From assembly GCF_040183065.1 (NCBI RefSeq), contig NC_091117.1:111169001-111233000 (forward strand): a DNA stretch of 64,000 nt. The letters run 5' to 3'. The position numbers and the translations under genes were made by a program. How positions within the stretch are numbered: the stretch's first letter is position 1; the number at the start of each line of letters is the position of its first letter. Source of the DNA: Periplaneta americana. Lineage: Eukaryota; Arthropoda; Insecta; Blattodea; Blattidae. Under the pieces are notes generated by a model that was given only the letters and a program-made list of their open reading frames with translations, was not told the DNA's origin and made no database searches. Shown here in pieces: positions 15,961-62,805 of this stretch.

Positions 15961-16214
15961 TTAATAACTTACAATTTAGCTGTAGCAAGTGGTGTCGTAA
16001 CTTGGAGTTTGTTTATTTAATGTAATTAGATTTAATTTGATTAGTTTCGCAACAATTGGACTTCCTGTTATATCCTGTTATTTAAATATTTAATTTAGGG
16101 TTGATTTATTAACTCTTACTGTGCAAGATGCCCCTTATTTCAATAATTCTATATCACATTAAATAGTCATTGTCTACACTAAAGTATTATCGTCATTCCT
16201 CATTTCTCATCGTA
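15961..16214. other. unassigned DNA before the transposase
   Basis: No terminal inverted repeat could be found for the transposase that starts at 16215. Confidence 0.4.
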
Positions 16215-17208
16215 ATGGCAAATCGACGTGACATGAGACAGCGAGTTATAGCTCTAGTTGAGGCTGGATATGGGGCCAAATCTGCCGGCCATTTGGTCGG
16301 TATTCCTGGCAGTAGAGACGCGAGGTGGGTTCATCATTATCAAAATTCAGGGGAAGTCGAAAGTCGCCCTATTCCTGGGCATCCGCGGATTTCTTCATTG
16401 GAAGAGGATGCTTCCTTATTCGAGACAGTTCGACAGGACCCCTTTCGGACTGCTAGCGAAATAAGAGCAGCATCTAACTTTCCCAATTCCTCACAGAATG
16501 TGATCAACAGGTTGAGGAGCCATGGTAATAGGAGCCGGAGGGCTGCGCAAATGGAAATATTGGGGGAAGACAAGCTGTCGACCGTCTTGCCTTCGCAACC
16601 AATCAAGTGGATTTCGAGTGGAGAAATGTAGTTTTCTCCGACGAAACAACCATCTCGAATGATTACGAAGATTCTGTCCATGTCTATTGTGAGGATGGCC
16701 TCTGACATGATCAGTGCTATGTGCACCGACGTGAAAGATCGGAGCACTTTACATATCGTGTTGGGGGGTGAATGTCTTATGATGGGTCTGGCATTATAGA
16801 ACGCATTGATGGCTGGTTTAATGTGGAAACTTACGAGCACATTCTGGAAAATATATTCCTTTCTTCGGCCCGAGAACGTTTTCCCAAAGGAACATTGCTG
16901 TTCCAGCAGGATAACCATGCGGTGCACTATGCCGCAACCATTCGAAGATGGTTTCAAAGGAGATCCGAGATCGAAATCATTCATTGGCCTCCGAAGTCAC
17001 CTGATTTGGACGTCATCGAAAATTTATGGTCGGAATTGAAAAAGAGGATAGCCACCTATGCCTTCAAAATCGAGACAAATTGTGGGATCAAGTTGTTATC
17101 TGGGAAGATCACGCCAAGGATCAGAACTTATTCCACAATCTCGTGACATCCATGCCGGATAGACTTAGAGCTGTAATAGAAGCCGATGGCATGTGGACAA
17201 GATTTTAA
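16215..17208 (+). pseudogene. Tc1-like transposase with 35-residue D-E spacing
   Basis: ATG at 16215 opens an intact DNA-binding part (MRQRVIALVEAGYGAKSAG, GHPRISSLEED) up to a stop at 16629-16631. A frameshift near 16550 then leads to the catalytic core: first Asp in VVFSDETT near 16635, second Asp in FQQDNHAVH near 16905, Glu in SPDLDVIENLW near 17005-17030, and the tail ADGMWTRF ending at 17206. I count 35 residues between the second Asp and the Glu, one more than in Tc1. Stops interrupt it near 16703 and 16769, and another frameshift is near 17050. A related 3' fragment is at 8085-8510. Confidence 0.85.
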
Positions 17209-20449: not shown

Positions 20450-21462
20450 TTCGAGACGAATGTCTTCCACCGATTAGGGTCGCTGCGGATCCAGCCCAAT
20501 GTCACAGTCGAATTTGTCCATAGAGTTGCCTCAGAAGTGTCGTGGCCTGTCGCCTTGCTGAAGTAATTCAGCAGTCACGCTCCAACCAGAGCAGCTTGTA
20601 GTTCTAATCTTGGCAGCGTTACCTTCTTTACTGGTGCGAGTCTATTCTTGCTACAGGCTAGGCTGACGGAGACGCAGTCATCCTTGGTGGAACGGACGTA
20701 AATGACTGCTCCGTAGGCTCTTTCACTAGCATCACAAAAAACGTGAAGTTGGTGGATATATCGTTCGGAAGTGCCGATCCATCGAGGAATGCGTATTTGC
20801 GACAACTCTGAAAGGCTGGAGATCCACATGTGCCAACGAGTTCCTAGATCGTGTGGCAAGAGTTCGTCCCATTCCATTCCTCTGCACCACGTGTCCTGAA
20901 ATAGCAATTTTCCGGTGATGGATATTGGTGTCAAAAGTCCAAGTATGTCGTAGAATCTGGACGTTACACGCAGGAGTTGCCTCTTGCGGGTGGGTCCCTC
21001 CAGGAACGTTTCTGTGATGTCACGGTGATCTATGTAGAAGGTGTCAGATGACGTGTCCCACATTCCTCCCAGAACCTGTGTGTCAGTCTCGATTTTCCGA
21101 TCCTCGGCCTCCCAAAAACATCTTAACTGCTCGGAGTTAGTTGCCCATTTTACCATAGGTAGGCTAAATATATTCATCAGTTGTGTGAGTTCGTAGTACA
21201 GGGAGATTACTTGGTTATCATTTTCCCTGCTGGCCACAAAGTCGTCCATGAAAGTACTGGTACTGTTATCGATGAGACTGGCGGCACTAGGAAATGTGGA
21301 CTTGTGTAGGTAAGCAAGTTCCCTTAGTGCTGCTGAAAGGAGAAACGGACTGCAGGTAAGGCCAAAAGGTAGACGTGTAAAACGGTAGATAGTGACGTCA
21401 CTTGTCATTTCATATTTTCCTTCGTCATCTTGAGTTACGTTGTACCAGAAAAACCTGGTCAA
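20450..21462 (-). pseudogene. BEL/Pao reverse transcriptase and start of RNase H
   Basis: Minus-strand frame 21462-20575 carries RLPFGLTCSPFLLSAAL, the active-site box FMDDFVAS near 21245, SRFYDILGLLTPISITGKLL, and HVFCDASERAYGAVIY (RNase H start). After a stop at 20575 a second frame continues ATLWTNSTVTLGWIRSDP and WKTFVSN to 20450, where the array begins and the protein becomes a simple HDKDHDK-type repeat. The copy is non-functional. Confidence 0.9.
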
Positions 21463-23008
21463 ATCTGTCTTTCCGATCCAATTTAAGCTGCAGGATCGCT
21501 TGCTCTATGTTCCCAATTATTGCCGTACGGTATGTTCGGAATCTCAGAAGAATCGAAAGAACCTCTGGTAATAAATTTGGTCCCATCTCTAGTGAATCAT
21601 TGAGTGAGGGATCATCGCCTCCACGTTTCTCTTTCTTTACTAATTGGTGAGGTAAGTAGAACTCGTCATATGGTTGACTTCCTAGAGCAACAAGATCCAC
21701 GTGCCCCTTAACAATGTAGTCCATCATCTGAGTATAGTATATTTCTTTTAGATGTGCATTTCCTTGCAGTCTCTTCTCTAAGTTGTGGAACCATCTCTGT
21801 GCATTATAGCGATTGGTGGGCGGAATAATTCCCTCCTTCCTGGGAAGGGAAACTACCCGCCGTTGGTCCTCGATGAGATAGGAGTCCTCGAAGGCCTGAA
21901 GTATTGCTGAGTCCTTGGAACTGCGTTGTCGATCTTGATTTTCTCTTATCCCCAGGGTCTCCAGATCCCAGAATTTTCTGAGGACATCATCCGGGTAAGA
22001 GGGGGCATGTTCTGAGTGGATGTAATTCACAATTGTTGAGCCCACGGTGATGCCTGTTCGATTCCCACTTAGTATCCAACCAAACTTGGAGGGGATAAGT
22101 ACTACTGTTGGTGAAATACGGATGGGTGAGCTGTTTTTCACCACCTTCCAGTAGTGATCACTTCCAATAATGATTTCAATTGGAAGAGTCATATCCTCGG
22201 TGTGATCCTTGGGGTCAGCTAGCTGCAGTTTCCTAGTGTGCGCTAGCATTTTTACATCGTGAGGTACTGCTGGCTGTGGAGAGAAGACATGGGTACTTTC
22301 AAATCCAGTGACACTCGCAGTAGAGTTGGTCCAGATACTCTTCACCGAAAATCTCACAAGTCTGCGTGGACTCGATGTAGAAGATGTCTCAAAGGATGCA
22401 ATGACTAAGTCTCGCCAGTCGACAACCTCTAACTTCAGCTCATCCACTATGGATTTGGTGACAAAGCTAGACTGACTCCAGCCGTCCAACACGCAGCACG
22501 TAAGTTTAGTTAGACGTGTGGGTCCCATGACCCATACGCGTGCTGTCTGCAGGTATGTGAAATCTGTTGCTTCAGCATTTATCCTATTTACGGACGTAAA
22601 TTTTGTCGGGTGAGTTGTTGGCTCGGTAGATCTGGGGTTGCTGCAGATAGACCTGTGGTGGGACATCTTGCAGTGAGTGCACAATGCTTTGCCCTTTCTG
22701 CTGCAGTCTCTGGCAGAGTGACCTCGATTCAGGCAAAGAAAACAGCGGTTAGCATTCTTCAGTCTCTTCACTCGCTCACTGGCATCTGGGACTACCTTAC
22801 AATCTTGAGCCCAATGACCACGGGACCTGCTCTTACGCGATCTGGATCCTGTCTTGGTGTCGACTCGCAGTGTTGCTGTTGTAGGGATATAGGTAGAAGA
22901 GAGGGCGTCACCACGGATCTTCTGAGTAGTCAGGGCGCTGTCTACTTCCTCGCCCAAAAACTCCATTAGCTTGAGAATATCTCTCTCTGATAAGTTTTCT
23001 CTCTTCAC
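21425..23008 (-). pseudogene. BEL/Pao zinc knuckle, protease and RT start
   Basis: Continues the gag frame after the single stop. In order: KRENLSERDILKLMEFLGEE, CCHC knuckles (CFLCLNRGHSARDC, then CTHCKMSHHRSIC) near 22620-22740, an aspartic-protease-like domain (DUF1758) in which the usual DTGSQ-type core reads VLDGWSQSSFV near 22480 (altered), EIIIGSDHYWKVV, and the start of reverse transcriptase SLNDSLEMGPNLLPEVL. A stretch expected before SLND (the RVVFDAS-type motif) is missing, so an internal deletion is likely near 21640. The frame is lost by a shift near 21460. Confidence 0.9.
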
Positions 23009-23017
23009 GTGAATTAT

Positions 23018-23722
23018 TCACCGGCGACAGATGTCGTCCGGGAACGCTTGCAGTATTTTAGGCGCAAGGATCCTTCCATATCCATTGACATCTTCTCCGA
23101 GTGCTTGAAGGGCTTGCACTTGCTGGTGACATTCTATGTATGTAGTGTTCAGTGCTTCAGGAGTGGCAATTCGTATGGGTTTTACATCCTCCAGATAATC
23201 TAAGTGTGCTGAATTATCCTGTTCTTGTCGCCGTAGCGCGTCCGTAGTATTTTCTTCGTCTCCTCGTACATTCCTGCAATCACAGGAATTCGTCAACAAA
23301 TTGTTTCGGTTCATCCTCCAAATAGCCAGGAGAAGTATGTGTTTGTTTATTGTAGAGAGGGAGGGGTCCTTATCTATAGATGATTCGAACTGCTCCCAAA
23401 ATAGTGCCCAGGTCTCAACGTCTCCGGAGAATGGTTCGAGGTTGATCGGTGGTAGTCGGAACGAGTGTGTGATCGAAGCTTGTGTTGGTGCAGTTGTGAC
23501 TGTCTGCTTATCGGAGATACTTGTGTTCGTCATCGAGGTTGATAATCTATCCCCAATCCTTCGCGACGCTTTCTGTATCATGCATTTAGCGGAATCCAGG
23601 TACTCCTCACACTTCTCCACGTCATCATCGTACTCGCTGTCTAAAAGGAGATCGTGGATAGTGTCATCAAGTGTGCCCAATTTACTCAGGGTTTCCTGAA
23701 GCCGGTCATTCTCTAGCAGCAA
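23018..23722 (-). pseudogene. BEL/Pao gag-like N-terminal region
   Basis: A 234-codon frame on the minus strand begins near 23722 with a coiled, acidic N-terminus and contains FSGDVETWALFWEQFESSID (DUF1759-type gag segment) and later HLDYLEDVKPIRIATPEALN and ILAPKILQAFPDDICRR. It stops at a TGA at 23018-23020 where the family reads Trp; the same frame reopens at 23008. Residues between about 23310 and 23215 are out of register with the family while both flanks match, which implies two compensating frameshifts. Gag would package element RNA. Confidence 0.85.
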
Positions 23723-23760
23723 GCATTTGACACCAGTGCATTTTCTTTAATTAGGACCCA

Positions 23761-29869: not shown

Positions 29870-31325
29870 CACTCACCGGTAAAAAAGCCGGGCCAACTAC
29901 ATTTTCTTCAAAAGTTTTGAAAATTGTAGAATTTTTTAAATAATTGTAGGTGTGCTCAGGTTCATTTAGTTATTCATTTATTTTGTGATGCGTAATAATG
30001 TAATAATGAATATGTAATAGCCAACAATGATGTGAAAAGAAGATTCGTTCTTCTTGCAATATTGTGTCTAAAGTTCTTGGACTCATTTCAAGCTAAGCTG
30101 AAGAAGTCTACAGACTGGTAAGCTCTTTTGAGGCAGTATTGGAATACTTCACTGTATACAAATGTCACTAAGTCCTACCGATTCAGCAAAAGTGGTTGCA
30201 TTGATAGAAGATGGGAATAGTCAGTTTTATGTGGCTGCAGTTCTTGAGATTCCTCGATCAACCATACAACGGGTGTACCATCGCTTTAGAGAGACAGGAG
30301 GTTATTCCAGGAGCTCCGGTTCAGGGAGAAAACGAGTAACTTTGGCTCGTGACGTCCATTTTATTGTCCTAAACACATTAAGAGATCGCCATTCCACAGC
30401 TATTGAGACCAGAAGAGCTTTCCAGAAAATAAGACAAGTTAACTGTAAGAATGATTACGTTTTGCTCACAATAATGCCAATTGGAACCTGGGGTTGTGGC
30501 GAGGAGTGCTCTTCACAGATGAATCGAGATTTAGTTTACAGATGGACGTGAAAGAGTGTGGAAAAGAGAAGGAGAACGTTTTTCTTCATGTACCTTCAGT
30601 TCACGTGTCAGTTTCCAAGGTAGGTCAGTAATGGTATGGGGTGGCATTTCGTATGAAGCTCACACAGAATTTGTTTTCATTAATGGAGGTGCTTTGACTG
30701 CTCCAAGATACATCGAACAAGGTCTAATTTAACATGTGGTACCATATGCCCCACTTATTGCCGAAAACTTCCTGTTAATGCATGGCAATGCTCGCCCTCA
30801 TGCTACAGAAATCGTGGATGAGTTCCTTCACAACGTTGGATTGAATAGGATAGCATGGCCAGCAAGAAGTCCTGATATCAACCCTATTGAACATGTGTGG
30901 GGAATGATAGGGAAGCGAGTTAGAAGTCGTCTAACTCCTCACAGCAACTTACAGCAGTTCCGAAATGTTCTAAGTAAAGAATGGAATAGAATCGACCAGA
31001 CTGACATCCAGAATCTGATCGAAGAGTTGAGTCGGCGAATGGTAAGTCATACAGTCACGGGAAGGCAATACCCGCTATTAGCAACATCTGGGTGGCCACA
31101 AAATCAGTTGAACATTTGGAAGAAAATTGATACAATTTTGCAAGTTTTTACACGTTTTAATTATATCCATTGTTTGGCATTGAAAATAATAGCGCAAGTG
31201 ATAATAAAAAAAGTTTTTTTTTCTGGGAAGCAATGTTTTCTTCATTTCATAATGGGTTTTCTGATTCTCACCTCATAAAAAAAATTGAGAAACTTTAGGT
31301 GGCCCGGTTTTCTTGACGGTGAGTG
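29870..31325 (+). mobile_element. Tc1 element with intact ends
   Basis: Left end CACTCACCGGTAAAAAAGCC and right end, reverse-complemented, CACTCACCGTCAAGAAAACC; TA flanks at 29868-29869 and 31326-31327. Length 1456 bp, typical for Tc1. It carries a broken transposase. Confidence 0.95.
30162..31100 (+). pseudogene. Tc1 transposase, broken
   Basis: MSLSPTDSAKVVALIEDGNS at 30162 starts a paired-type helix-turn-helix (IPRSTIQRVYHRFRETGGYS; GRKRVTLARD). A frameshift near 30500 leads to VLFTDESRFSLQ (first Asp), then VMVWGGIS, a stop at 30730-30732, LLMHGNARPHATE, and SPDINPIEHVWG with the catalytic Glu. The second catalytic residue, normally Asp in QDNARPH, is Gly here (GGC, one base from GAC). 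With the frameshift, stop and lost Asp it cannot act. The open frame beyond about 31110 is probably 3' non-coding. Confidence 0.9.
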
Positions 31326-31695: not shown

Positions 31696-32084
31696 AATCT
31701 TCATCTTACGATGTTGGATGACGTATATACGTCCGTTGATGTGACATATTAATGAATTTAAATACTATTATAGTCACAATCATGCCATGGTATGAAAGAA
31801 AAATTTCACAACCTCGAGCGGGATTCGAACCTGCGACTTTCTGTCCTTTGGTCAGGTGCTCTACCACTGAGCTATCAAGTTCGTCTCACGCCAAAGGCTC
31901 GGAATTATCCTTTCATACTGGCGCCTGATCGGAGTACAGGAAGTCGCAAGTTCGAATCCCGCTCGAGGTTGTGAAATTTTTCTTTCATACCATGGCATGA
32001 TTGTGACTATAATAATATTTAAATTCATTAATATGTCACATCAACGGACGTATATACGTCATCCAACATCGTAAGATGAAGATT
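31696..32084. repeat. two SINEs in head-to-head palindrome
   Basis: Arms of about 145 bp (31696-31842 minus, 31941-32084 plus) are near-perfect inverted copies around a ~98-bp spacer. Each arm holds a tRNA-like B box (GGTTCGAATCCCGCTCGAGG on the minus arm) and a shared tail with TCATACCATGGCATGATTGT and ACGGACGTATATACGTCATC. The minus copy also keeps a D arm (TAGCTCAGTGGTAGAGC) in the spacer. The T stem has one mismatch and the anticodon stem is disrupted, so these are SINEs, not tRNA genes. Confidence 0.8.
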
Positions 32085-32199
32085 ACATTTGTAAAGTTTC
32101 TTCCCAGCCATAAGCAGTGCTGACTAGATCAGACGCTATGGACAGTACTGTATAACAGAGTCGCCAGTATGAAAGGATAATTCCGAGCATTTGGCGTGA

Positions 32200-32345
32200 G
32201 ACGAATTCGATAGCTCAGTGGTAGAGCGCCTGACCCAAGTACAGGAAGTCGCAGGTTCGAATCCCGCTCGAAGTTGTGAAATTTTTCTTTCATACCATGG
32301 CATGATTATGACTATAATAGTATTTAAATTCACCAAAATTTCTCT
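32200..32345 (+). mobile_element. tRNA-derived SINE, third copy
   Basis: TTCGATAGCTCAGTGGTAGA through GCAGGTTCGAATCCCGCTCG, then the same tail as the palindromic pair. It has a good A box and B box; the anticodon arm (CCTG/CAGG) has a nine-base loop. The sequence upstream of its head (32160-32199) matches the spacer of the palindrome. Confidence 0.75.
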
Positions 32346-38340: not shown

Positions 38341-41109
38341 TTAGTCTTTGCAGAAGTTTGTGAGCGAGGTTTTCCTTTCTCGGCAGTTTTCAACGTGATA
38401 TCGTCCACATGGCTTCTGACACAGTTCACACACACATTCGTCGTTGGGTTCGTGGTATCTCTTGGTGGTACAGATCTTATGGTGAAAACCATGTACTGCG
38501 TAACGGGTCACTATGTGTCTCAGTTCGTAGTTTGTGTTTGCCCAGTCTCTGGTTGTCATGGCGTCTGTTATGTAGAACTCGCTCCAGATGGCGTTCTTCT
38601 TTCCTCTGAGTACTTCCAGGGCTTTCTCGTATGCTGGGGTGTTCGGCATGCAGAGTTGTGTTCTAATATCTTCGATGAAGAAGCGTTCCTTCATTAGTTC
38701 GTATGTTAGTCTCGAGAGAGTTGTTCTTCCTACTCCTAGTACTCTTTTCATGAAGGATGATTTGACTCGTTCAATTTTTCCCATGTCGCTGACTGTTAAG
38801 TTTCCCCATATGATGTTTAGTCCGTAGGTTGCTATTGGTGCTATAGCTGACCTAAATAAGGTCATTGCCGTTTTTGTTTCTAGTTGTTGCAGATTCTTAA
38901 TATTGTACATAGCTTTTATTGCAGCGGCTGCTCTTTCTTGAATGTGGGTTCTGTATGATTTTAGTGTTGTTTGAAGTGTTACTCCTAAATATTTAAATTT
39001 TTGCACTACCTCAAGTGGCTCGTTCTGCAGTGTCAGGGTGTCTTTTTTTCTTTGTTTGCCGCCGTTTCTGAAGTTCATTTGTTTTGTTTTCTGGTGGTTT
39101 ATCTGTAGGCTGTTTTCCTCGGCCCATCTCACGAGTTTATTTAGGACCTGTTGTAGTTCTTCTATGTTGGACGAGCCTATCGCCATGTCGTCTGCGTACA
39201 TAATCATCGATGCTGTGGTGTCCTCTGTGATTTTTGTTATGTCTGTGGTCATGATATTGAAGAGGACCGGGCTGATAGGATCTCCTTGTAGTACCCCATT
39301 TGTCTGTATTATTTTGTTAGATAGAGTAATTTCGTCTGATATTTGAATGTAGTTGCAGCTTAGAATGTCTGCAATTATTGTTGTTAAGGCATGTGATTCG
39401 CCGATCATGTTGCTTAGTTTTCTAATTAGTGTTTCCCTGTTTATTAGGTCGAAAGCTTTGCAGTAGTCGACGAAGACTACATGGTATTTCTTCCCAGGGA
39501 GTCTTAGGGTATTCTCTATTTGTTCTATTAGGTAGCTTATGGCATGAAGGGTGCTTCTGCCTTTCCTGAATCCGAACTGGCATTCCGGGATACGGTTGTC
39601 TACTTCCACTACTAGTCTGTTAGTTAGTATTTTTGTGAGTACTTTGAAAGCGACATTCTCGAGGACAATACCTCGGAAGGAGTGAGGATTGTTGGTTTCT
39701 CCTTTTCCTTTGTAGAGAATTTTCATTGTCGATGTTCTCCATGCTTCTGGGATTGTTCCTAGGTGTAGGCATTTGTTGAGTAGCTCCAACCAGAAGTCAC
39801 CCGTCAGATGTAAGGAGTCCTTTATGTGTTCCATGTATATGCCATCAGGTCCCGCTGCTTTCTTGTTCTTGGCTGCTGTAATTGTTTCTTCTATTTCTTT
39901 CCTGGTTATAGGAGGTGGTTGTTGCGTCGTTTCTCTCTTGGGTGGCTGCTGTGACTTTTCTTTATGCTGGTAATTCAGGATTTCTTTGAAGTGGAGTTCC
40001 CATGTGTCCATGGTGATTTCCTTTCCTACTGTTGGTCTTGAATTTCTGAGTGCGATGAAGGGGTTTTGGTTGGCTTCCACGGCTAGTTTTCTTGCTTCTT
40101 CCTCTATGTATTGTGCTTTTTTCGTTTTTATTAGTTGTTTGTACTGTTTTCTCTGTGTAGCATATTGCGATAGGATATCTTTTTGATTTGCGGTTCTTGC
40201 TTGGTGGAGTGCTGTTAAAGTTTCCTGCCGCTTATCGAAACACTCTTTGTCAAACCAGGGTTGGGCTCTTCTTTCCTTTGTTGGGATGCTGCACTCTTGG
40301 AGGATTGATGTGTGTAGTTTAGCGGCTTTCCCGAGTTCGTTCTGCTTTGCTAGTTGTGATGCTGTTCTGATTTTTGCCTGCATTTCCTTTAGTTTTCTGG
40401 TATCTATCTTTCTGGAGACTCTGTGTACTTTTATATTCGAGATTTGTTGAGCCTGTTGAATTCTGATTGTAGTTTCAATCGGTATGTGCTTTCTTATAGG
40501 AGCCATTCCTGTTGCCCAAAGTCCATCTTGTTTAATTGCTTGCATTCCTTCTCCTTTGAGGAGTACAAGGTCTATAGCACTGGTTCCGTTAGGAGCTATG
40601 TAAGTCTTTAGTTCTGGCTTGTTTATGAGGGTAAACCCTTCTTCTGTTAACGTGTCCAGAACCACTTCGGACTTGGTGTTTTGCTTATCTATTCTACAGT
40701 TCAAGTCTCCTGCAAGGATGATCCTCTCTTCTTCGGTTGTTTGTGTGATGACCTCTGCTATCCTTTCTACTGCATCTTCTGCTGTTGATTGTGGGTTGAT
40801 GTACATGCCTATTATGGTCACATCTTCGGTTTTTACCAAGACTGTATTTTCGGTTTTTAAGCTTTCTCTGATTTTTCCTAGTTTTGGCTTGAGGAAGATC
40901 GATACTCCGCCAGCTGGCCTTCCTGCTGTGGGTTGGGCGAAAGTGTGTATTCCGTAGTGTCCTTGAATGTTGTATTCTTCTGTTAAGAAGGTTTCTGTAA
41001 GGATGATTGCATCATATGCTGCTATTGATTCTATTGGTGTGAGTGACATTGCGTTGCGTAGGCCTTCGATGTTCCACAGTAATATCTTTGTGTGTCTAGA
41101 TGAGTTCAA
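38341..41109 (-). CDS. LINE ORF2: endonuclease-reverse transcriptase
   Basis: About 922 residues. N-terminal apurinic-type endonuclease: LLWNIEGL, ILTETFL, GGVSIFLK, IILAGDLNCRID, SAIDLVLL. Reverse transcriptase: FRGIVLENVAFKVLTKIL, CQFGFRKGRSTLHAI, FVDYCKAFDLINRETLI, QTNGVLQGDPISPVLFNIMT, active site MYADDMAIG, then FKYLGVTL. A C-terminal Cys-rich end (CVCELCQKPCGRYHVENC) closes it; no RNase H. The endpoint 41109 is a TTG, and the first ATG in frame comes only after WNIEGLRNA, so translation must start from a non-ATG codon or by shifting from ORF1; the frame is open up to about 41150. Exact clade (CR1 or relative) not fixed. Confidence 0.92.
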   Translation of the reverse strand: MNSSRHTKILLWNIEGLRNAMSLTPIESIAAYDAIILTETFLTEEYNIQGHYGIHTFAQPTAGRPAGGVSIFLKPKLGKIRESLKTENTVLVKTEDVTIIGMYINPQSTAEDAVERIAEVITQTTEEERIILAGDLNCRIDKQNTKSEVVLDTLTEEGFTLINKPELKTYIAPNGTSAIDLVLLKGEGMQAIKQDGLWATGMAPIRKHIPIETTIRIQQAQQISNIKVHRVSRKIDTRKLKEMQAKIRTASQLAKQNELGKAAKLHTSILQECSIPTKERRAQPWFDKECFDKRQETLTALHQARTANQKDILSQYATQRKQYKQLIKTKKAQYIEEEARKLAVEANQNPFIALRNSRPTVGKEITMDTWELHFKEILNYQHKEKSQQPPKRETTQQPPPITRKEIEETITAAKNKKAAGPDGIYMEHIKDSLHLTGDFWLELLNKCLHLGTIPEAWRTSTMKILYKGKGETNNPHSFRGIVLENVAFKVLTKILTNRLVVEVDNRIPECQFGFRKGRSTLHAISYLIEQIENTLRLPGKKYHVVFVDYCKAFDLINRETLIRKLSNMIGESHALTTIIADILSCNYIQISDEITLSNKIIQTNGVLQGDPISPVLFNIMTTDITKITEDTTASMIMYADDMAIGSSNIEELQQVLNKLVRWAEENSLQINHQKTKQMNFRNGGKQRKKDTLTLQNEPLEVVQKFKYLGVTLQTTLKSYRTHIQERAAAAIKAMYNIKNLQQLETKTAMTLFRSAIAPIATYGLNIIWGNLTVSDMGKIERVKSSFMKRVLGVGRTTLSRLTYELMKERFFIEDIRTQLCMPNTPAYEKALEVLRGKKNAIWSEFYITDAMTTRDWANTNYELRHIVTRYAVHGFHHKICTTKRYHEPNDECVCELCQKPCGRYHVENCRERKTSLTNFCKD

Positions 41110-41986
41110 CTCCTTCGTCTTGATTGTTTTTTGGAAATCGAAATCGTCTGACTATCACTCCCTGTGGCCAGAAGTCTGACCGTTCTGTCTCCTCGATGTG
41201 GTTAAAAGGGAAGCCTACTTTGAAGGCTTTCTTGCCTCCTAAATTATGCAATTCTTCACATATGATGTTTCCTTGGATACCATTTCTTTCCAGGTATTTA
41301 GCCACCGTTTCTGGGGTCGTACTTTTCTTCAGTCTCCCAATGTATAGCCACGCCATCTTCTCGGCTGCTTGGAGGTCGTCACTATTATTTCTTGTGCCTA
41401 TAATAGTTCTTGCCTGGGTTTCTTGTCTGCGATTGGATCCGCGTTCTCTTGGTTGCTGTGTTTTCCATCCTGCTTCTTTCTCCTCCTTTTCCGTGTTTTC
41501 TCTCTCTTCCGCTGGTCGTTGGTGTTCTTCATAGTCCTTGTAGATGTCTCGACTTTCGTTGCTGGCGGTTTTTTTGTTGCTGTTTGTTATGACAGTTTCT
41601 CGTTTGGACGGTTCCGTTTTCCTGGTTAGGCTGTGGTTTATTTTGTCTTCTATTAGTGGTCCTAGCTCGTTGGCTAGGAAGTCCATTATGTAGTCTACTT
41701 TCGCTGTTATGTTCTCTCTTTGTTCATTTTCATCTTCTTTCCTTCCTGTTTCCTTTTCTACTTTTGTGAGTGCGTCTGTACATTTGTCACATAGCCACGA
41801 GAGTTTACGGTTTTTTCTCCTAATCATATCGAATTCTCCTTGTGTTAGGCCGATACATTCTTTATGGTGTTCATTTTTGCAGAAGCCGTCGCATGTTAGT
41901 GACAGCTCTTCTTCCTCTTTGATGACTTTGTCACAGGTCCCGCATTGCGGATTTTTCTGGCCTGTCTTCTTTGGTGATGTGGGCAT
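41096..41986 (-). CDS. LINE ORF1: PHD finger plus C-terminal RNA-binding-like domain
   Basis: 296 residues from ATG at 41986. Residues about 15-65 form a PHD-type zinc finger with Cys4-His-Cys3 spacing (CGTCDKVI, CDGFCKNEHHKECIGL, WLCDKC). The middle is charged and coiled (KVEKETGRKEDENEQREN and on). Residues about 210-290 hold LYIGRLKKSTTPETVAKYLE and FKVGFPFNHIEETERSDFWP, an RRM-like fold found at the C-terminus of many insect LINE ORF1 proteins. PHD fingers in ORF1 are known for CR1-like LINEs. It should bind element RNA in the particle. ORF1 and ORF2 overlap by at least 14 nt, ORF2 being in the +1 frame. Confidence 0.9.
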   Translation of the reverse strand: MPTSPKKTGQKNPQCGTCDKVIKEEEELSLTCDGFCKNEHHKECIGLTQGEFDMIRRKNRKLSWLCDKCTDALTKVEKETGRKEDENEQRENITAKVDYIMDFLANELGPLIEDKINHSLTRKTEPSKRETVITNSNKKTASNESRDIYKDYEEHQRPAEERENTEKEEKEAGWKTQQPRERGSNRRQETQARTIIGTRNNSDDLQAAEKMAWLYIGRLKKSTTPETVAKYLERNGIQGNIICEELHNLGGKKAFKVGFPFNHIEETERSDFWPQGVIVRRFRFPKNNQDEGVELI

Positions 41987-42142
41987 CTTCGCTCGTTGTT
42001 TTGTTATCTCTGTTTTGGTGCGATATTCGTTTGTTACTGCGTCACTTCCGGTTTCCGCTTCCCGCGTGGGTTGGTCGTCCTTAACCTGAGTTGCTTTATT
42101 CCTTTCTTTGGCGTTTTGTTTCAGCGTTCCTTCTTTATTCTA

Positions 42143-49780: not shown

Positions 49781-50093
49781 ACGCTCCAGAGATGGACGTG
49801 GAAAATATACCCTGAAACATAAGAAGAGTGGGGAAGGATTAAATGAAGTAACAACTCATAATTTGTCTTTCTCTGCTTTTGAAATTCATTATACCACAAC
49901 CTCCGTTATTTAAGTACTGAGGATTTGCAGCGTACAGTATGGTGTATGTTATCAGGAATTTACTTGTGGGGGGAAACATTGTTTTCCATGCCACACACAA
50001 TTGTTTGAGAGACTAGTGAAGATAGTCAGTGATGCTTAAGCTACAGTTTGTGGTGAAAAAGAGATCTTTTATCATGCACACACTGGATATAAG

Positions 50094-50444
50094 CAAATAC
50101 TCTCTAACATTAATACTGGAAAGTTCACTATAAGAGAGGCGAATGACTCATCAGTGCTATCTAGCGGCAGGGAATGTTGACAGTGAGGATAACATGACAC
50201 GTAGCGCGGTAAACTGCATCTAACAAGAGTTTTGTACTTCAACACGTGGTGTAAGTCGTAAGGATTATTCTCATGGTTGTTCCACAAAATGTCAGGGAAA
50301 AGTGGAATTGTTTGTTCTGTGTTCTTCTGTAAAAACTACGCTTGGCAAAAACATGCTAGATCGTTCTTCAGATTTCCGAAAGATACAGATAGGTGAGTGA
50401 GTAGTCATGTAAATACGAGTAGTCTATTACTTTTCTGCCACAGG

Positions 50445-50485
<41 letters not shown>

Positions 50486-50683
50486 TACAGTAGATAACTT
50501 GTTCTGTGACCTTATCATGTGTTGTGGCTATCACCAATGGGTATGGAGAAGGAAGATAATTAGTCTGAGATGAACTTTCGTGTCAGTAGATTCGTATAAT
50601 TTTAATCATGAAACAAACTCTCTTTCTGTTAGCTCATTCTTTCCCCACTCACACGATTGACATGACAGGTCTCGTGTCCTCAC

Positions 50684-50716
<33 letters not shown>

Positions 50717-52556
50717 ATTATTATTTGTTTTTGTCTTATAGATGTGCCATATGGGTAAATAAATGTAAAAGACAGGACCTAGACGAAACGTTTAAAACTA
50801 GAGGAACAGAGTATCTGTACAAAAATCACAGAATATGTTCAGATCACTTTAGATTATCGGACTTCAATAACCCTAATTTGAAAAGTCAGGGGTAAGTAAA
50901 AATAAGGTGTAATTGGAAAAGTACCGAAGTTTCAAATGAGTCATAGACCTGTTAATTTTTAATATTTTTTTTAAATAACAGACTGAAGAGAACAGCTATT
51001 CCTTCACTGAATTTAACAGCTCCTTCTTCCGAAAATATGGGTCAAAGTACGATGAAAGAACCGCGAAGGTCCCCAAAGAAACACATTAGACCTTCCATCG
51101 AGGAGGCGACAGGTTCTCCGATTCCAGACAGAAACAACGATAGTCCTCTACCAGGTACCTCATAATCAGATAGTACATTAGCAATAACATGTTCTCTGTG
51201 CTAAGTGAATCAGTTATTAAACTGCATAAAACTACTTTACTTCCATCATACCAAACACAATTTCTTTATAGTTTCTCCTTATAAAATACTGAACGTCATG
51301 ACTTTTTCATTCAAACTAAATAGACGCATATTGTGATACGTAACATAATAATACGAATTATTGATTTTGTGAAGAAAGTGTGTGAACTCATGTTTTCTCA
51401 TAAAAACTGATTCAGTTAGTTATTCGCAAAATATTATTTACCTAGCCCTAGACTTTCAAGACGTTATTAATATTTCACTAAATTAAGTTCCTGTTTATTT
51501 TTTAAGATGCAAGAAATCCTAAAAGGTCAAAGATGGCTCAAGATCTTCAGATAAAGACACTTTCTAAGAAATTGATTGCAGCTCAAAAGTTGGTATCTAA
51601 ACACAAAAAAAATTATTTCATCTCTTCGGGCGGAAGTGAGAGCTCTGAAGACAACCAGTTCAAATACTGATTTAATCAAAATTGTTTCTAATGATGAATT
51701 CATTGTGTCGCACGTGCGCTTAAAAAGAAAGAAAAAATGGGAAGGCGGTATTACAGATGTCTCCGATTTGGATGTAACTGTTGATGACAAAAATGTACAG
51801 CATACAAATGAAAAAACTGTGTTGCAAGAAAATGCAAGGGCTTATGTTGCAGGTTGGGTGTGTAGCAGAATAAATCAGGAAATTTGTCGAAGAAATTTAT
51901 CTTGTAAAGAAAACCCCAACGATGACATAACAATGCACATCGCAAATAAAAAATACCGTAAAGATTCAAAAATTGTTTTCCCTAATGATGTTTCTCTAAT
52001 GCTCAGCCAATTGTGTTCTGATGTTTTCAAAGAAATTGATCATGTTATTTGTAAAACTAGAATTGGTGTAAAAAAAGAACTAGTTAAAATGGTAGTGCTC
52101 CCTGTTAACATGTCCATTTGCAGTGACTGTGCCAATGTCTTCATTGATAAATATTTCAATGTGTTAATAAATTGTTACATCAAAAATAAAATGGACAACC
52201 ATACAGCTGAAAAACGAAACAAGCGATGCATGAAAGCTGCTAAAGTCATGCACAACTAAATTTCATCAAATTTGAAAATATGAGAATTTATCAATTCATT
52301 TCTATTCTAATAACTTTGTAATTTGTTGTTAATTAAAAATGTTATGAACAAAGTGACTCTAAAGTATACTATTTATTGCTTTGCAGCTTCTTATTGAAAT
52401 CAAATGCACACCTCTCCTCTTTTCTTCACTTAACCCAGCACGACGCACAGAGTGTGCAAACGTTTCAAGCCGCTAGATGGCAGCAGTGTTACTTTTCACC
52501 GCAGCTTGCAATGCTAAACAGGAAAGCTTTCCAGTATTAATGTTAGAGAGTATTTG
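50094..52556 (+). mobile_element. P-like element carrying a THAP gene
   Basis: A perfect 30-bp terminal inverted repeat: CAAATACTCTCTAACATTAA (then TACTGGAAAG) at 50094-50123 and its inverse at 52527-52556. ATATAAG flanks both ends (50087-50093, 52557-52563); the duplication is 7 bp, or 8 bp (GATATAAG) if the last G is shared. P elements make 8-bp duplications. An internal inverted pair, GCTATCTAGCGGC at 50158 and GCCGCTAGATGGC near 52471, recalls the inner repeats of P. The element is 2463 bp and holds one four-exon gene. Confidence 0.85.
50289..52259 (+). CDS. THAP-domain protein, four exons, no catalytic core
   Basis: Exons 50289-50392, 50742-50891, 50982-51154 and 51507-52259; donors GTGAGT, GTAAGT, GTACCT and acceptors TTATAG, AACAG, TTTTTAAG, with phases that all fit (2, 2, 1). 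Residues about 11-75 are a THAP zinc finger: C-x4-C (CSVFFC), FRFP, Trp in IWVNKCKR, C-x2-H (CSDHF), then AIPSLNL for the AVPxF box. Exon 4 needs a one-base shift in an A8 run near 51606-51613 to go from KLVSKHKK into SLRAEVRALK and the long frame ending KVMHN. The C-terminal part has ENARAYVAGWVCSRI, as in P/THAP9-type C-termini. The RNase-H-like catalytic domain is absent, so a DNA-binding repressor-like product is possible. Introns hold (TTA)n (50445-50484) and (CAT)n (50683-50717). Confidence 0.8.
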
Positions 52557-53406
52557 ATATAAGGAAGCAACTTCAATCCTATGATAAGGCAAATTATTTT
52601 TCACGGAGAGCAAAATAAAAATAGAATAAACGAACAATAAAAACAAATACGGAGTAGTAGTAGGTGGATGGAATTCGTTAGCAGCTATCTCCCTATGGTA
52701 AGTTCTGGATTGATGCGGCCGTAACATATTTGCATCTTTTATATTGCATTCCTGCCATCTCTTGGAGCTCAAAAATAATAGTCCTTTTCTTTTATCTGTC
52801 TATAATAACAAATCACAGCAGTGTGCACTAAGCATATGCTTATTTTAGAAAAAATTAGATACTCAAAAAGAATCACGCTGTGGTTCGGTTAAAAGTGCTT
52901 CTAGGTCAAAATTTTTTGTGCGAAATGTTGGCACCAGACTGCTGCATTGGAGTTAAATTCCTCGCTTGAAGTTGGTCAAATGTTGCTGCCTCGAATGAGT
53001 TAAGGTCTGTCATATCTTGTATGGAAGGCGACAGATAACATACACAGACATCTGACACTGTAACAGATAAGGTTTTATTTTCTGAGTTTATGACAAACGT
53101 TTAATGGAATGTACCAAAACAACAGTAACATGGAGTTATAAGTAAAATAGTGTGAAAAAACTTAGATATACAATTATTACTGTTAATTAATAATTATTCA
53201 ATATTTGATGTACCACAAATATAATATGATAGGTCCATACATAGTGTTCCATCTATATACTGTGACATGTAGAAACATTTTACAAAATATTATTGATATA
53301 GCAGTAGATTAATAACAATATTAGCACAGAGATAATGACACAGAAAATATAATAAAACGAATAATCATGCTGTACAACTGCTACAGACGCAAAGGTTGAA
53401 ACACTA
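52557..53406. other. unassigned DNA
   Basis: Nothing recognised to the right of the P-like element. Confidence 0.4.
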
Positions 53407-54396: not shown

Positions 54397-54727
54397 CAGG
54401 TGTTTCAGACCACCCGTATCAGCCTTTTTTCTCGAAAACTATATGATATTGGTTGTCCATAAAAAAATTTTGATAACAAAACATATGTAAAGAATCGATT
54501 GGTGGTAGTACCATTTCCCGTAACAAACTGGAAGTAGAGGTACCTGTGGTCAACTTTGAAACTTCAAATGAGAACATGGAGCATTGAAGGTGCCATTGGA
54601 AACTATTTTTAAAAAGAAACAACTTTTACTGAAACTTTTATTTTTCTAACTTTTATTATTTACTCACAAAGCAACAAAAATGGTATTTTCTGGGAAATGT
54701 TGTATGTTGTTTATGTACGTACACTCT

Positions 54728-55491
54728 TCATAGTAAGTGTTCAAAATGTGTGCCACCCTGTGCAAAAGAATGTTCTAATCTCCTCTTAACATCCGTGATT
54801 GCACGGAGACCTTCAGCACAGCTGAGAGACACACATGGTGTGGCTTGTCTAATTCTTTGTTTCATAGCTTCTCTAGTTGTTGTATGCACCTGGTAGAACA
54901 TGTCTTTAATTCTCCCCCACAAGAAGAAGTCATTTGGAGCGAAGTCAGGAGATCTTGCAGACCAGGCTATTGGTCCTCCTCGTCCATTTTACTGTAGGGG
55001 AATAACCAGTTAATAACACACCGAGCCCTACGTGAAAAATGGGCCAGACAGCTGCCCTGCTGAAGCCACATCGTTACCCGAAGCGCAAGGCGAATATGAT
55101 GAAGCAACTGGTGAAAAATGTTTCAGAAGAAACGTGCGTTTCCTCAAAAAAGTATGGTCCTATGAATCGGTGTCCGAGGAGGCCACACCATGTGTTGAGG
55201 CTCCACACGTGCTGGTAATACACTTCACGTAGCCAGTGTGGATTAACTGGAGACCAGTAATGGGCATTGTAGAGATTCTCCAGACCATTATTTTTGAAAG
55301 TTGCCTCATCAGTCCACAGAATTCTGAGCTCGAAATCACGGTCCATGTTTAGAAACTAGTTGCAGAAATCAACACGAGTCTGGAAGTCATGTCCCCCAAG
55401 TTCCTGATGGAGATAAATATGGTATGAATGAAATTTGTCTTTGAGAATTCTAAACACTGTATTATGATGCAATCCTAAGTCACGGGCAATC
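54728..55491 (-). pseudogene. DD41D mariner transposase, broken
   Basis: On the minus strand from 55491: RKIARDLGLHHNTVFRILKD, HQELGGHDFQTRVDFCN, a stop, MDRDFELRILWTDEATFKNN (first catalytic Asp), HYWSPVNPHWLREVYYQHVW, WCGLLGHRFIGPYFFEE. A frame loss and an apparent deletion follow near 55010-55070, and the part with the second Asp is not seen. The C-terminus WGRIKDMFYQ and TPCVSLSCAEGLRAIT to THFEHLL lies at 54922-54728. Related to but distinct from the transposase at 10959-12850. Confidence 0.8.
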
Positions 55492-55495
55492 TTTC

Positions 55496-55690
55496 TTGTG
55501 GGGGAGAATTAAAGACATGATCTACCAGATGAGTACAACAACTAAAGAAGACATGAAACAAAGAATTAGACAAGCCACACCATGTGTGTCTCTCAGCTGT
55601 GTTGAAGATTTCCGTGCAATCACGGATGTTGGGAGGAGATCAGAACATTGTTTAGCACAGGGTGGCGCACATTTTGAACACTTACTATGA
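55496..55690 (+). pseudogene. duplicate C-terminus of the DD41D transposase
   Basis: 64 codons, WGRIKDMIYQMSTTTKEDMK to AHFEHLL, the inverted twin of 54728-54922 with about a dozen residue changes. It exists only because the element's end was duplicated in inverse orientation; it has no catalytic part. Confidence 0.85.
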
Positions 55691-56313
55691 AGAGTGTACG
55701 TACATAAACAACATACAACATTTCTCAGAAAATATCATTTTCGTTGCTTTGTGAGTAAACAATAAAAGTTAGGAAAAAAAAGTTTCAGTAAAAGTTGTTT
55801 CTTTTTAAAAGTAGTTTCCAATGACACATTCAATGACCCATGTTCTCATTTGAAATTTCGAAGTTGACCACAGGTACCCCTACTTCCGGTTTGTTACGGG
55901 AAATGGTACTACCACCAATCGATTCTTTACATAGGTTTTGGTTATCAACTTTTTTTATGAACAACCAGCATCATATAGTTTTCGAGAAAAAAGGCTGATA
56001 CGGGTGGTCTGAAAAGCATTAATTAGAATATGACGAGAAAGATACCAGGTACTTTCGATGCCAGAGATATCATAATTAGCGGTAATAAATTTCTTGTAAC
56101 TACAGAAAAACTTACTATTGAGCTGTCTGCTAGAAGCTCTACCTATTCTGATTTAATTTATAATTTGGTTTCCTAAGCAACATTTCTTCACTGCACTTAA
56201 CAAGAAATCGAGAGTTCTGCATTATAAGCCATTAAAATATCCTGACAACTTTGGACATGATAGAAGGTATTCATTTCCATGGCTTTGTAAAAGAAGTTGG
56301 CCTTAATGAAAAC

Positions 56314-61198: not shown

Positions 61199-62805
61199 AT
61201 GCCTTCCACTGCACATGTGACATCTAGTGATAACTTGATGCAGCTGATAGAAGGTCAGGAGGAGCATAACGAGTTAGCCTCCAGTCGTCCACAGAGAATA
61301 CAGCAGGCAGAAAACTTTAATTGTTGTATAGCAAAACAATGCCTAAATCGCACTTACTTTACTACGGATGGTCAAGTAGTCTTTTGTCAGACATACTCCA
61401 AGCAAGTAAGTCTCTCGTAACTAGCCTAATAACTGCACTGCAAGACTCTAGCATGCTTACTGAAGTGTACTTAAATTTAAATTTTTTATTTCAGGTTAAA
61501 CGTGAGCAGAAATCCCATCTTGAGCAGCATAAATCTGCAGCTGCGCACATTGCTAGTGTAGCTAGGTGAAATAAGTCCAGCAACAACAGTAAGCAAACAC
61601 TTATTTCTTTCACAGTTGGCAATCTTTAAGATAACTTTAACTTTTGCCTATGACAGGCATTGGTATCAGCTAACACATCCCATAGAACGTGCTAACCAAC
61701 TCAACCTTGAAATCATTCTTAGAAGACATCAGTGGCAGCAATATACCTAATGAATCCATTTTAAGGAAGAATTATTTGGTTCCTGTTCACCACAAGACAC
61801 TAGATGAAATAAAAGATATAGGCAACCACTACAGTTGCGGTCGCTTCATTGTGAATGTGGTAGTAGGTAAGCTGGACCCAAATGAATCAGGTAACCATCA
61901 TCTAATTCTTTGTAAAGAAATAGAACAAACAACAGCACAATAGCCTGTGCAGTGAGGGATGCTTTATGCATATTGTGGCCAGCAGAGAATGAGGATAGCA
62001 AGTTACTTTTATTAGTAACAGACAGTGCCGCCTACGTGTTGAAGGCAGGAGAGGTTCTACAGTCCTTCTACCCAAGTATGCTGCACGATACATGCTTGGC
62101 CCATGGTCTGCACCGCCTTGCGGAGGAGATTAGAAGCCACTTTGATGACGTGAACAACCTGATATCTTCGGTCAAGAAGGTTTTCTTAAAAGCCCCAATA
62201 AGTATACAGTTGTTCAAAGAGAAACTACTGGCAACCCCTCTTCCACCTGAGCTGATACTTACCCACTGGGGAACTTGACTGTCTGCTGCCATTTACTATG
62301 TCGAGCACCTAAAAGACGTTACAAATGTAGTCAATGACTTGGATGAAACAAAAAGCTTCCTGCATCGCCAAGGCCAAAAAATCATTTGAGTGTCCCTTGG
62401 ATATAATACAACACATTTTTGTTTTATACCAGAAACTATTCTCTGGTTGGAAAGTGCAACCTTGCCACTCAAAGATGCTCTGGATATCACTGGCAATGTT
62501 TCCAGAAAGAAATACCTGGACCACTGGGAGTTGCATGTTCTTCGAAGTTGCAGAAGATTCTTCAATGGAATTCTGGTTTTGAAGATATGAAAGTCATCAA
62601 TTCAGTATTACAAGGAGAAAAATCTACAGGAAAATTACCCCTAGTACCTGCTGCATTAGCATCTATGCCCTATGCTCCAATGATGTCATGTTCCATTGAA
62701 AGCACTGTTTCTTCATATACGAATATGTTACGTGATAATAAGAAATCGTTTACACCAGAAAATTTGGGTATGTATATAGCTATCTACTGTAATGCCAAAA
62801 AATAA
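61199..62805 (+). pseudogene. hAT-like transposase gene (DUF659 type), broken
   Basis: Starts near ATG 61199 and ends at the stop 62803-62805. An early intron is visible: donor CAA/GTAAGT at 61405/61406, acceptor TTTTATTTCAG ending 61494, joining CQTYSKQ to VKREQKSHLEQH in frame. Later blocks: SFLEDISGSNIPNESILRKN, FIVNVVVGKLDPNESGNHHL, LLLLVTDSAAYVLKAGEVLQ (catalytic-type Asp), CLAHGLHRLAEEIRSHFDDV, VKKVFLKAP, and the end PLVPAALASMPYAPMMSCSI, SFTPENLGMYIAIYCNAKK. I remember very similar proteins as abundant hAT-like genes in cockroaches and termites. Stops at 61567 and in at least five other places, plus frameshifts near 61940, 62275 and 62560, make it dead. Confidence 0.8.

Follow-up and report, generated by a model that had tools for sequence, protein, structure and literature searches.

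P elements with internal deletions are a familiar phenomenon (PMC7776569), and it has been proposed, in passages of PMC12393704, that they bring invasions of P elements in Drosophila to a halt. Here we describe an element of this type in a 64,000-nucleotide stretch of the Periplaneta americana genome (contig NC_091117.1, positions 111,169,001 to 111,233,000 of the forward strand), referred to below as the window. The element, a DNA transposon of 2463 bp spanning window positions 50094-52556, represents a new family within an established type of defective, possibly self-limiting P transposon. Like KP and other deleted P elements of Drosophila melanogaster, it has the ends of full-length elements, lacks the catalytic region and retains a THAP finger with a putative dimerisation region. 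The putative product, 196 residues long (234 in one other copy), is comparable in size to KP, for which PMC7776569 mentions 207 residues. The element differs from KP in its family and host, in the retention of the C-terminal transposase domain in the DNA and in making target duplications of 7 bp rather than 8 bp.

Other members of the P superfamily offer further points of comparison, taken here from portions of the published accounts. Galileo, from Drosophila, also generates 7-bp duplications, with a palindromic preference close to GTANTAC (PMC4168063). The Galileo THAP domain protects positions +63 to +80 (PMC3688188), close to where inner inverted repeats are found in the cockroach element (offsets 62-85 from the left end and 75-98 from the right end). 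However, the terminal repeats of Galileo-G measure 1.2 kb (PMC3688188), as against 30 bp here. The P elements of Anopheles gambiae encode transposases of 876-895 residues and have terminal repeats of 27-31 bp that are shared by deleted derivatives (PMC1562414). In contrast to the present case, the mosquito elements make 8-bp duplications and their derivatives are miniature inverted-repeat transposable elements (P-MITEs), with a central region described as unrelated to any P sequence (PMC1562414). Zebrafish Pdre2/THAP9 is likewise P-like, with inverted repeats in its subterminal regions and copies carrying internal deletions (PMC10983969), whereas its terminal repeats are 13 bp long and its duplications 8 bp. 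An earlier description of the locus, made from the letters alone (hereafter the original prediction), held that P-type elements are little described in cockroach-like genomes. This is only partly right: in a survey of arthropod genomes, Blattella among them, the P superfamily is one of the groups of DNA transposons present in all investigated species (PMC6327564). Our literature search found no paper on a P element in a cockroach or in Periplaneta.

A P-type element that has lost its catalytic region

The element is delimited by a perfect 30-bp terminal inverted repeat, as originally predicted (coordinates of all features are collected in Table 1). Identity between the two arms stops after these 30 bp, so that the very long terminal repeats of Galileo have no equivalent here; short terminal repeats combined with a duplication of 7 bp are in line with the P superfamily. 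The terminal repeat occurs 284 times in the host assembly when at most one mismatch is allowed, while its reversed version, used as a control, does not occur at all.

To define the family, the 3.23-Gb host assembly, made up of 91 contigs, was searched with the DNA of the element and 40 of 3487 candidates were scored; the resulting list of copies is thus a lower bound, biased towards copies similar to that of the window. Thirty-nine further short-family loci were fetched, 30 of which are near-complete and were aligned with the window copy (31 short copies altogether). The nine loci left out (L037, L038, L040 and L042-L047) are truncated, interrupted or unspanned; among them, L046 is nearly complete and was omitted because its right end was not cleanly recognised. 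Individual short copies diverge from the majority base by 1.2-2.1%. Triplet microsatellites in intron 1 (TTA/CAT, at 50445-50486 and approximately 50683-50716) vary in length by tens of bases between copies.

An exact 7-bp duplication borders 27 of the 31 aligned copies, and the flanks differ from one copy to another. Together, these observations settle the length of the target duplication, which the original prediction had given as 7-8 bp, at 7 bp. An asymmetric 8-bp duplication fits the window copy and only 4 of the 30 others, approximately the level expected by chance, and was rejected. Among the 27 duplications, T occupies position 2 in 25 and A occupies position 6 in 22, and G or C fills position 1 in 21 cases and position 7 likewise in 21. 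Although these counts were taken without a background control, the preference is palindromic and much resembles the GTANTAC of Galileo.

The gene carried by the window copy comprises four exons joined at GT-AG junctions (50392/50742, 50891/50982 and 51154/51507), and all six splice dinucleotides are intact. Joining exons 1 to 3 yields a complete N-terminal THAP finger (PF05485, 2.9e-17, 87 of 87 profile positions). Residues C9, C14, P30, W39, C67, H70, F71 and P92, all present in the window protein, match by eye the eight THAP residues listed for Galileo in PMC4168063. In the canonical phase, exon 4 adds a segment assigned by eye, rather than with a predictor, to a coiled coil, and then reaches a stop codon, giving a predicted product of 196 residues. 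The complete finger and the three junctions of the original prediction are thus confirmed; what does not hold in the window copy is a continuous protein of about 390 residues. The longest open frame of the element, 227 codons (a length reached in none of 500 simulations), lies one base out of the canonical phase, the shift falling in an A-run at 51605-51612. A read-through of this point, made for searching, has 392 residues and is probably what had been counted as about 390. On paper, the downstream frame can be reached through 20 other ways of splicing the last intron at GT/GC-AG sites (giving 299-351 residues) or through 12 solutions with an extra small intron (325-375 residues). These are formal solutions only, and they are not needed because one of the short copies, L013, keeps a single frame with the canonical junctions, although one of them may apply to the window copy.

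Profile searches of the readings tested found no RNase H family in the window copy, in agreement with the original prediction, nor did they find a transposase combining a helix-turn-helix (HTH) motif, RNase H and a GTP-binding domain (GBD). The 227-residue frame gave nothing credible against PDB and Pfam, and an AlphaFold model of it computed without relatives has a mean predicted local distance difference test score (pLDDT) of 36.8. No relatives of the element were found in viral contigs or in prokaryote genome contigs. A weak THAP-like match elsewhere in the window, at approximately 59075 (tblastn 0.018 and 0.003), sits among stop codons and was discarded.

The missing part of the gene was found in longer relatives. 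When the genome was searched at the protein level with the 227-residue frame (150 of 1027 candidates scored), a second class of matches emerged, which start at residues 53-56 and have open frames extending upstream. Ten long relatives (L048-L057) were fetched. All ten contain both sides of the junction seen in the window element, that is, sequence up to element position 1663 and from position 1654 on, interrupted by 924-2670 bp that the window element lacks. Both terminal repeats lie within the fetched stretch in nine of them; in the tenth, L051, whose right part is interrupted and extends beyond the fetched stretch, the left repeat alone was seen. The middle region of L052 contains an HTH (PF12017, 6.9e-11), RNase H-N (PF21787, 6.2e-27), a GTP-binding insert (PF21788, 2.8e-19) and RNase H-C (PF21789, 1.4e-5), and parts of the same P-transposase set are present in L055 and L054. 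A retrotransposon-like piece (RNase_H, PF00075; 3.1e-14 in L052 and 4.2e-14 in L055) accounts for the greater length of these two relatives. Hence, the search for full-length relatives with the same ends, suggested by the original prediction, does lead to longer elements with the missing catalytic region in the same genome, though decayed ones.

In the long copies, the region absent from the short form is flanked by imperfect 10-bp direct repeats, GGTATTCCAG (with small variants) and GGCATTACAG, and the junction of the window element is a hybrid of the two. The hybrid 10-mer is found unchanged beside the expected flank in 21 of the 31 short copies and with one or two base differences in 7; in the remaining 3, a change in the flank hid it from the counting pattern, and the alignment shows it to be present. 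The occurrence of one and the same junction in all 31 aligned copies indicates a single deletion event, not many. The P-domain homology of the middle speaks against the reverse order of events, in which the long middle would have been inserted later into a short ancestor.

A sister family was also detected. Among the matches listed (best 130 of 4389 candidates), P-like catalytic domains occur at approximately 45-53% identity, three of them in 739-residue open frames (C3:68430121, C15:132763823 and C5:84860117). The last of the three loci, L058, was fetched. It is an element of 3769 bp with a 7-bp duplication (GTAATAA) and a right terminal repeat matching that of the window element at 22 of 30 positions. 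The 739-residue exon contains all four P-transposase domains and matches the sequence of the Drosophila P transposase structure 6p5a (8.3e-41) over residues 56-528; in the catalytic region, the sister family is approximately 48% identical. Identity between L058 and the window protein is 62% and 68% in the two principal parts of the THAP finger, 46% along the coiled-coil segment (4.1e-07) and 33% in the last part, where 199 positions align (1.2e-26). Judged from these open frames, the sister family is a candidate active P-like transposon. The P-superfamily transposase architecture, an HTH with an RNase H split by a GTP-binding domain, is therefore represented in the family through the open frames of L052 and L055, and through L058.

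The C-terminal part of the 227-codon frame is homologous to the region downstream of RNase H-C in L052/L055 and L058, and its position in L058 is the reason for naming it the transposase C-terminal domain; Pfam and PDB alone do not place this part, and 6p5a has no match there. The L058 motifs VLDE, VVSDQ and QDCIENIF (residues 177, 273 and 497 of the last exon), which by motif rather than by structure appear equivalent to D230, D303 and E531, have no counterpart in the window protein. The three catalytic acidic residues of an autonomous P element are thus absent by this comparison, and since the motifs are missing, the element cannot make transposase.

Inner inverted repeats as a candidate THAP site

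Internal to the terminal repeats lies a second pair of inverted repeats, already pointed out in the original prediction. The two arms match at 19 of 24 bases; none of 2000 first-order simulations of subterminal DNA reached this value (best pairs: mean 14.7, maximum 18). The two arms share a 10-bp core without mismatch, ATCTAGCGGC; its offsets are 66-75 counted from the left end and 79-88 counted from the right end, and 27 of the 31 short copies have it exactly in both inner repeats. Of the stretches compared in the alignment of short copies, the inner repeats show the lowest variation: 8 of 1471 cells differ there, and 207 of 11809 in the non-coding DNA nearby (p=1.6e-4). For the terminal repeats the count is 15 of 1859 (p=1.5e-3 relative to the same non-coding DNA), and exons and introns have 534 of 36420 and 453 of 24016 variable cells, respectively. 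The right-hand motif extends to the sister family: TCTAGCGGCTTG is found at offset 80 from the right end in both the window element and L058, while the left end of L058 bears, by eye, a looser resemblance to the inner-repeat motif.

The inner repeats are located near the positions bound by THAP domains in the described systems, namely the Galileo footprint and the P-element sites, which PMC3688188 places at 53-63 and 41-51. Furthermore, their spacing differs by 13 bp between the two ends, similar to the 12-bp difference of the P-element sites. Taken together, the offsets and the end asymmetry suggest that the THAP target is probably the inner repeat rather than the terminal repeat. This modifies the original prediction, in which the finger could bind the element ends, by moving the predicted target inwards.

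A text search of the literature with the letters of the inner repeat returned no related paper among the matches listed (title and start of abstract). As a separate observation, the right inner repeat contains CCGCTAGATGGCAG at 52470-52483 (+ strand), the sole window match to a CTCF-like pattern, CCRSYAGRKGGCRS, whose consensus was widened after the site had been seen. The pattern had no match in 100 shuffles, and the left inner repeat does not fit it.

Feature coordinates and other repeats of the window

Several other mobile elements, some of them remnants, are present in the window (Table 1). In addition, nested inverted repeats with arms of 184 nt (92%) and 165 nt (95%) occupy positions 31743-32342, an interval that also contains tRNA-like calls, Phe-aaa and Leu-caa, on opposite strands. 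A long foldback at 54403-56014 has paired arms of 241 and 318 nt that are 92% and 89% complementary. As to the host assembly, the drop in size from contig 17 (138 Mb) to contig 18 (3.8 Mb) suggests perhaps 17 chromosomes.

Table 1. Features of the P-type element and other transposon-related sequences in the window (LTR, long terminal repeat)
Feature	Position	Strand	Remarks
Left target-site duplication	50087..50093	n/a	7 bp, ATATAAG
Left terminal inverted repeat	50094..50123	+	30 bp, 30/30 identity with right arm
Left inner inverted repeat	50155..50178	+	Candidate THAP/transposase site
Exon 1	50289..50392	+	First part of THAP finger
Exon 2	50742..50891	+	Second part of THAP finger
Exon 3	50982..51154	+	End of THAP finger and linker
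Exon 4, canonical phase	51507..51670	+	Coiled-coil-like segment, then stop at 51668-51670
A-run with frame shift	51605..51612	+	Length variable among copies
227-codon open frame	51576..52259	+	End of coiled coil, deletion junction, transposase C-terminal domain
Internal deletion junction	51747..51756	+	Hybrid 10-mer GGTATTACAG of the two flanking repeats
Right inner inverted repeat	52459..52482	-	Candidate THAP/transposase site
Right terminal inverted repeat	52527..52556	-	30 bp, 30/30 identity with left arm
Right target-site duplication	52557..52563	n/a	7 bp, ATATAAG
Tc1/mariner-like remnants (two)	16167-17146, 30132-31278	+	HTH 2.9e-4; DDE_3 4.1e-07
Pao-type retrotransposon	20575-23746	-	PF05380 8.7e-42
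Non-LTR reverse transcriptase	38341-42139	-	PF00078 3.4e-39
hAT-like remnant, weak	61916-62802	+	DUF659 4.7e-07; dimerisation region 0.043

Spread of the short element and its possible function

Altogether, these data make it very probable that the window element is a non-autonomous, internally deleted member of the P superfamily that was multiplied by transposase acting in trans. The original interpretation is upheld in this respect, an internally deleted P-type element that kept its THAP finger and lost the catalytic region, but not in assigning it an intact protein of some 390 residues. We envisage a full-length ancestor of about 3.8 kb encoding a THAP finger, a coiled coil, an HTH, an RNase H split by a GTP-binding insert and a C-terminal domain. 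Approximately 1.4 kb of the last exon would have been lost between the two imperfect 10-bp repeats. The shortened element, having retained both ends, could then have spread by means of transposase made elsewhere, either by the long copies before their decay or perhaps by a relative. The predicted canonical product would comprise a THAP finger and a coiled coil without an active site and, by analogy with KP, could bind to the inner repeats, blocking transposase or titrating it; such repression is a possibility to which we give rather less than even chances.

Several observations weigh against the proposed history. The best 130 of 4389 candidates include no intact transposase of the same family; besides L052 itself, no match of at least 73% identity among them covers RNase H-N/GBD (residues 6-302) free of stops. 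In L052, RNase H-N/GBD and RNase H-C are in different frames, whereas the sister family reads through this region in one frame. It is for this reason that we infer, rather than identify, the source of transposase in trans. Nine of the ten long relatives (L048, L049, L050 and L052-L057) have the same bases on both flanks, with 96-98% identity to L048 over approximately 1500 bases upstream. The common flanks indicate that the nine go back to one insertion, copied together with its surroundings as part of a larger host repeat. L051 alone clearly stands apart from them, so that the independent long insertions seen amount to two. Moreover, the exact inner core is found at neither end in any of the nine long relatives compared (again, copies of one insertion), being altered at both ends to CTAGTGGC or CTAGCAGC, with changes that fall at CpG. 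Among the short copies, 30 of 31 do not combine the 392-residue frame with intact splice sites, and coding variants confined to a single copy look neutral (305 replacement to 76 synonymous changes, 1.23 times the expected ratio).

It is extremely improbable that the element belongs outside the P superfamily. THAP fingers are not exclusive to P transposases, being also found in Kolobok, and another superfamily with such a finger (Kolobok or hAT) might have been the source. However, the long relatives and the sister family carry P-transposase domains, and those of the sister match 6p5a. Furthermore, the duplications are 7 bp long, whereas Kolobok duplicates TTAA. The P homology of the missing middle refutes this assignment. 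Within the P superfamily, we rather favour the notion that the short element is a passive decayed copy, once mobilised in trans, whose coding part is a functionless remnant. The 392-residue frame and its splice sites are preserved in just one copy, L013; the mean pairwise difference among the 31 copies is 2.9% in exons and 3.4% in introns (1.6% in terminal repeats); and the long copies are broken as well. Somewhat at odds with this notion, the window copy has an open 227-codon frame and an intact THAP finger, and its truncated product would keep the architecture of a repressor. It could be, although we regard it as doubtful, that the short element spread or persists in the manner of KP, because its THAP and coiled-coil product would occupy the inner repeats and block transposase. 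The two regions are complete and in frame in the predicted 196-residue product, and a second copy, L028, with intact splice dinucleotides, is predicted to encode 234 residues, both figures being near the 207 given for KP (PMC7776569). The features by which passages of PMC12393704 recognise putative repressors, an interrupted transposase and a DNA-binding domain, are both present. Coding variants found in at least two copies also include fewer replacements (46 to 22 synonymous) than the single-copy variants do (Fisher p=0.026, copies treated as unrelated), which amounts to a hint rather than proof. Yet, with copies again treated as unrelated, the deficit gives just p=0.058 against the neutral expectation from the intron spectrum; six of the shared variants create stops, the singletons look neutral, and being good substrates would alone suffice for the short copies to spread. 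On present evidence, a passive decayed copy is more likely than a repressor.

That the four-exon gene specifies a protein maintained by the family, 392 residues long with THAP finger, coiled coil and C-terminal domain, we hold to be very unlikely. L013 has the whole frame and all splice dinucleotides open, and the sequence of majority bases of the 31 copies, built on the columns that the window copy has, is open over 392 codons. However, this majority reading adopts the length that the window copy has in another A-run (51732-51737), immediately ahead of the deletion junction, where 13 of the 31 copies have 6 bases and 11 have 7. Whether the C-terminal part falls in frame depends on the length of this run, and the founder may have had either 6 or 7. 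The window copy itself is broken at the first A-run.

The preferred reading, a deleted P element moved in trans, leaves some room for a broader role. One deletion may have created a THAP and coiled-coil protein (with the C-terminal domain in some copies) and thereby a brake at the level of the family, which out-spread its parent and helped silence it. We consider this unlikely; if true, self-limitation of the KP type would have had a separate origin in a host only distantly related to flies. Since it varies least among the short copies and has its right-hand motif at the same offset in the sister family, the inner repeat offers a sharply defined candidate THAP site. Added interest comes from the presence in one genome of a single deletion event, many separate short insertions, long relatives and a sister family. 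With a short deleted form, decayed long relatives and a sister whose catalytic exon is open, this genome allows the question of self-limitation to be asked outside flies.

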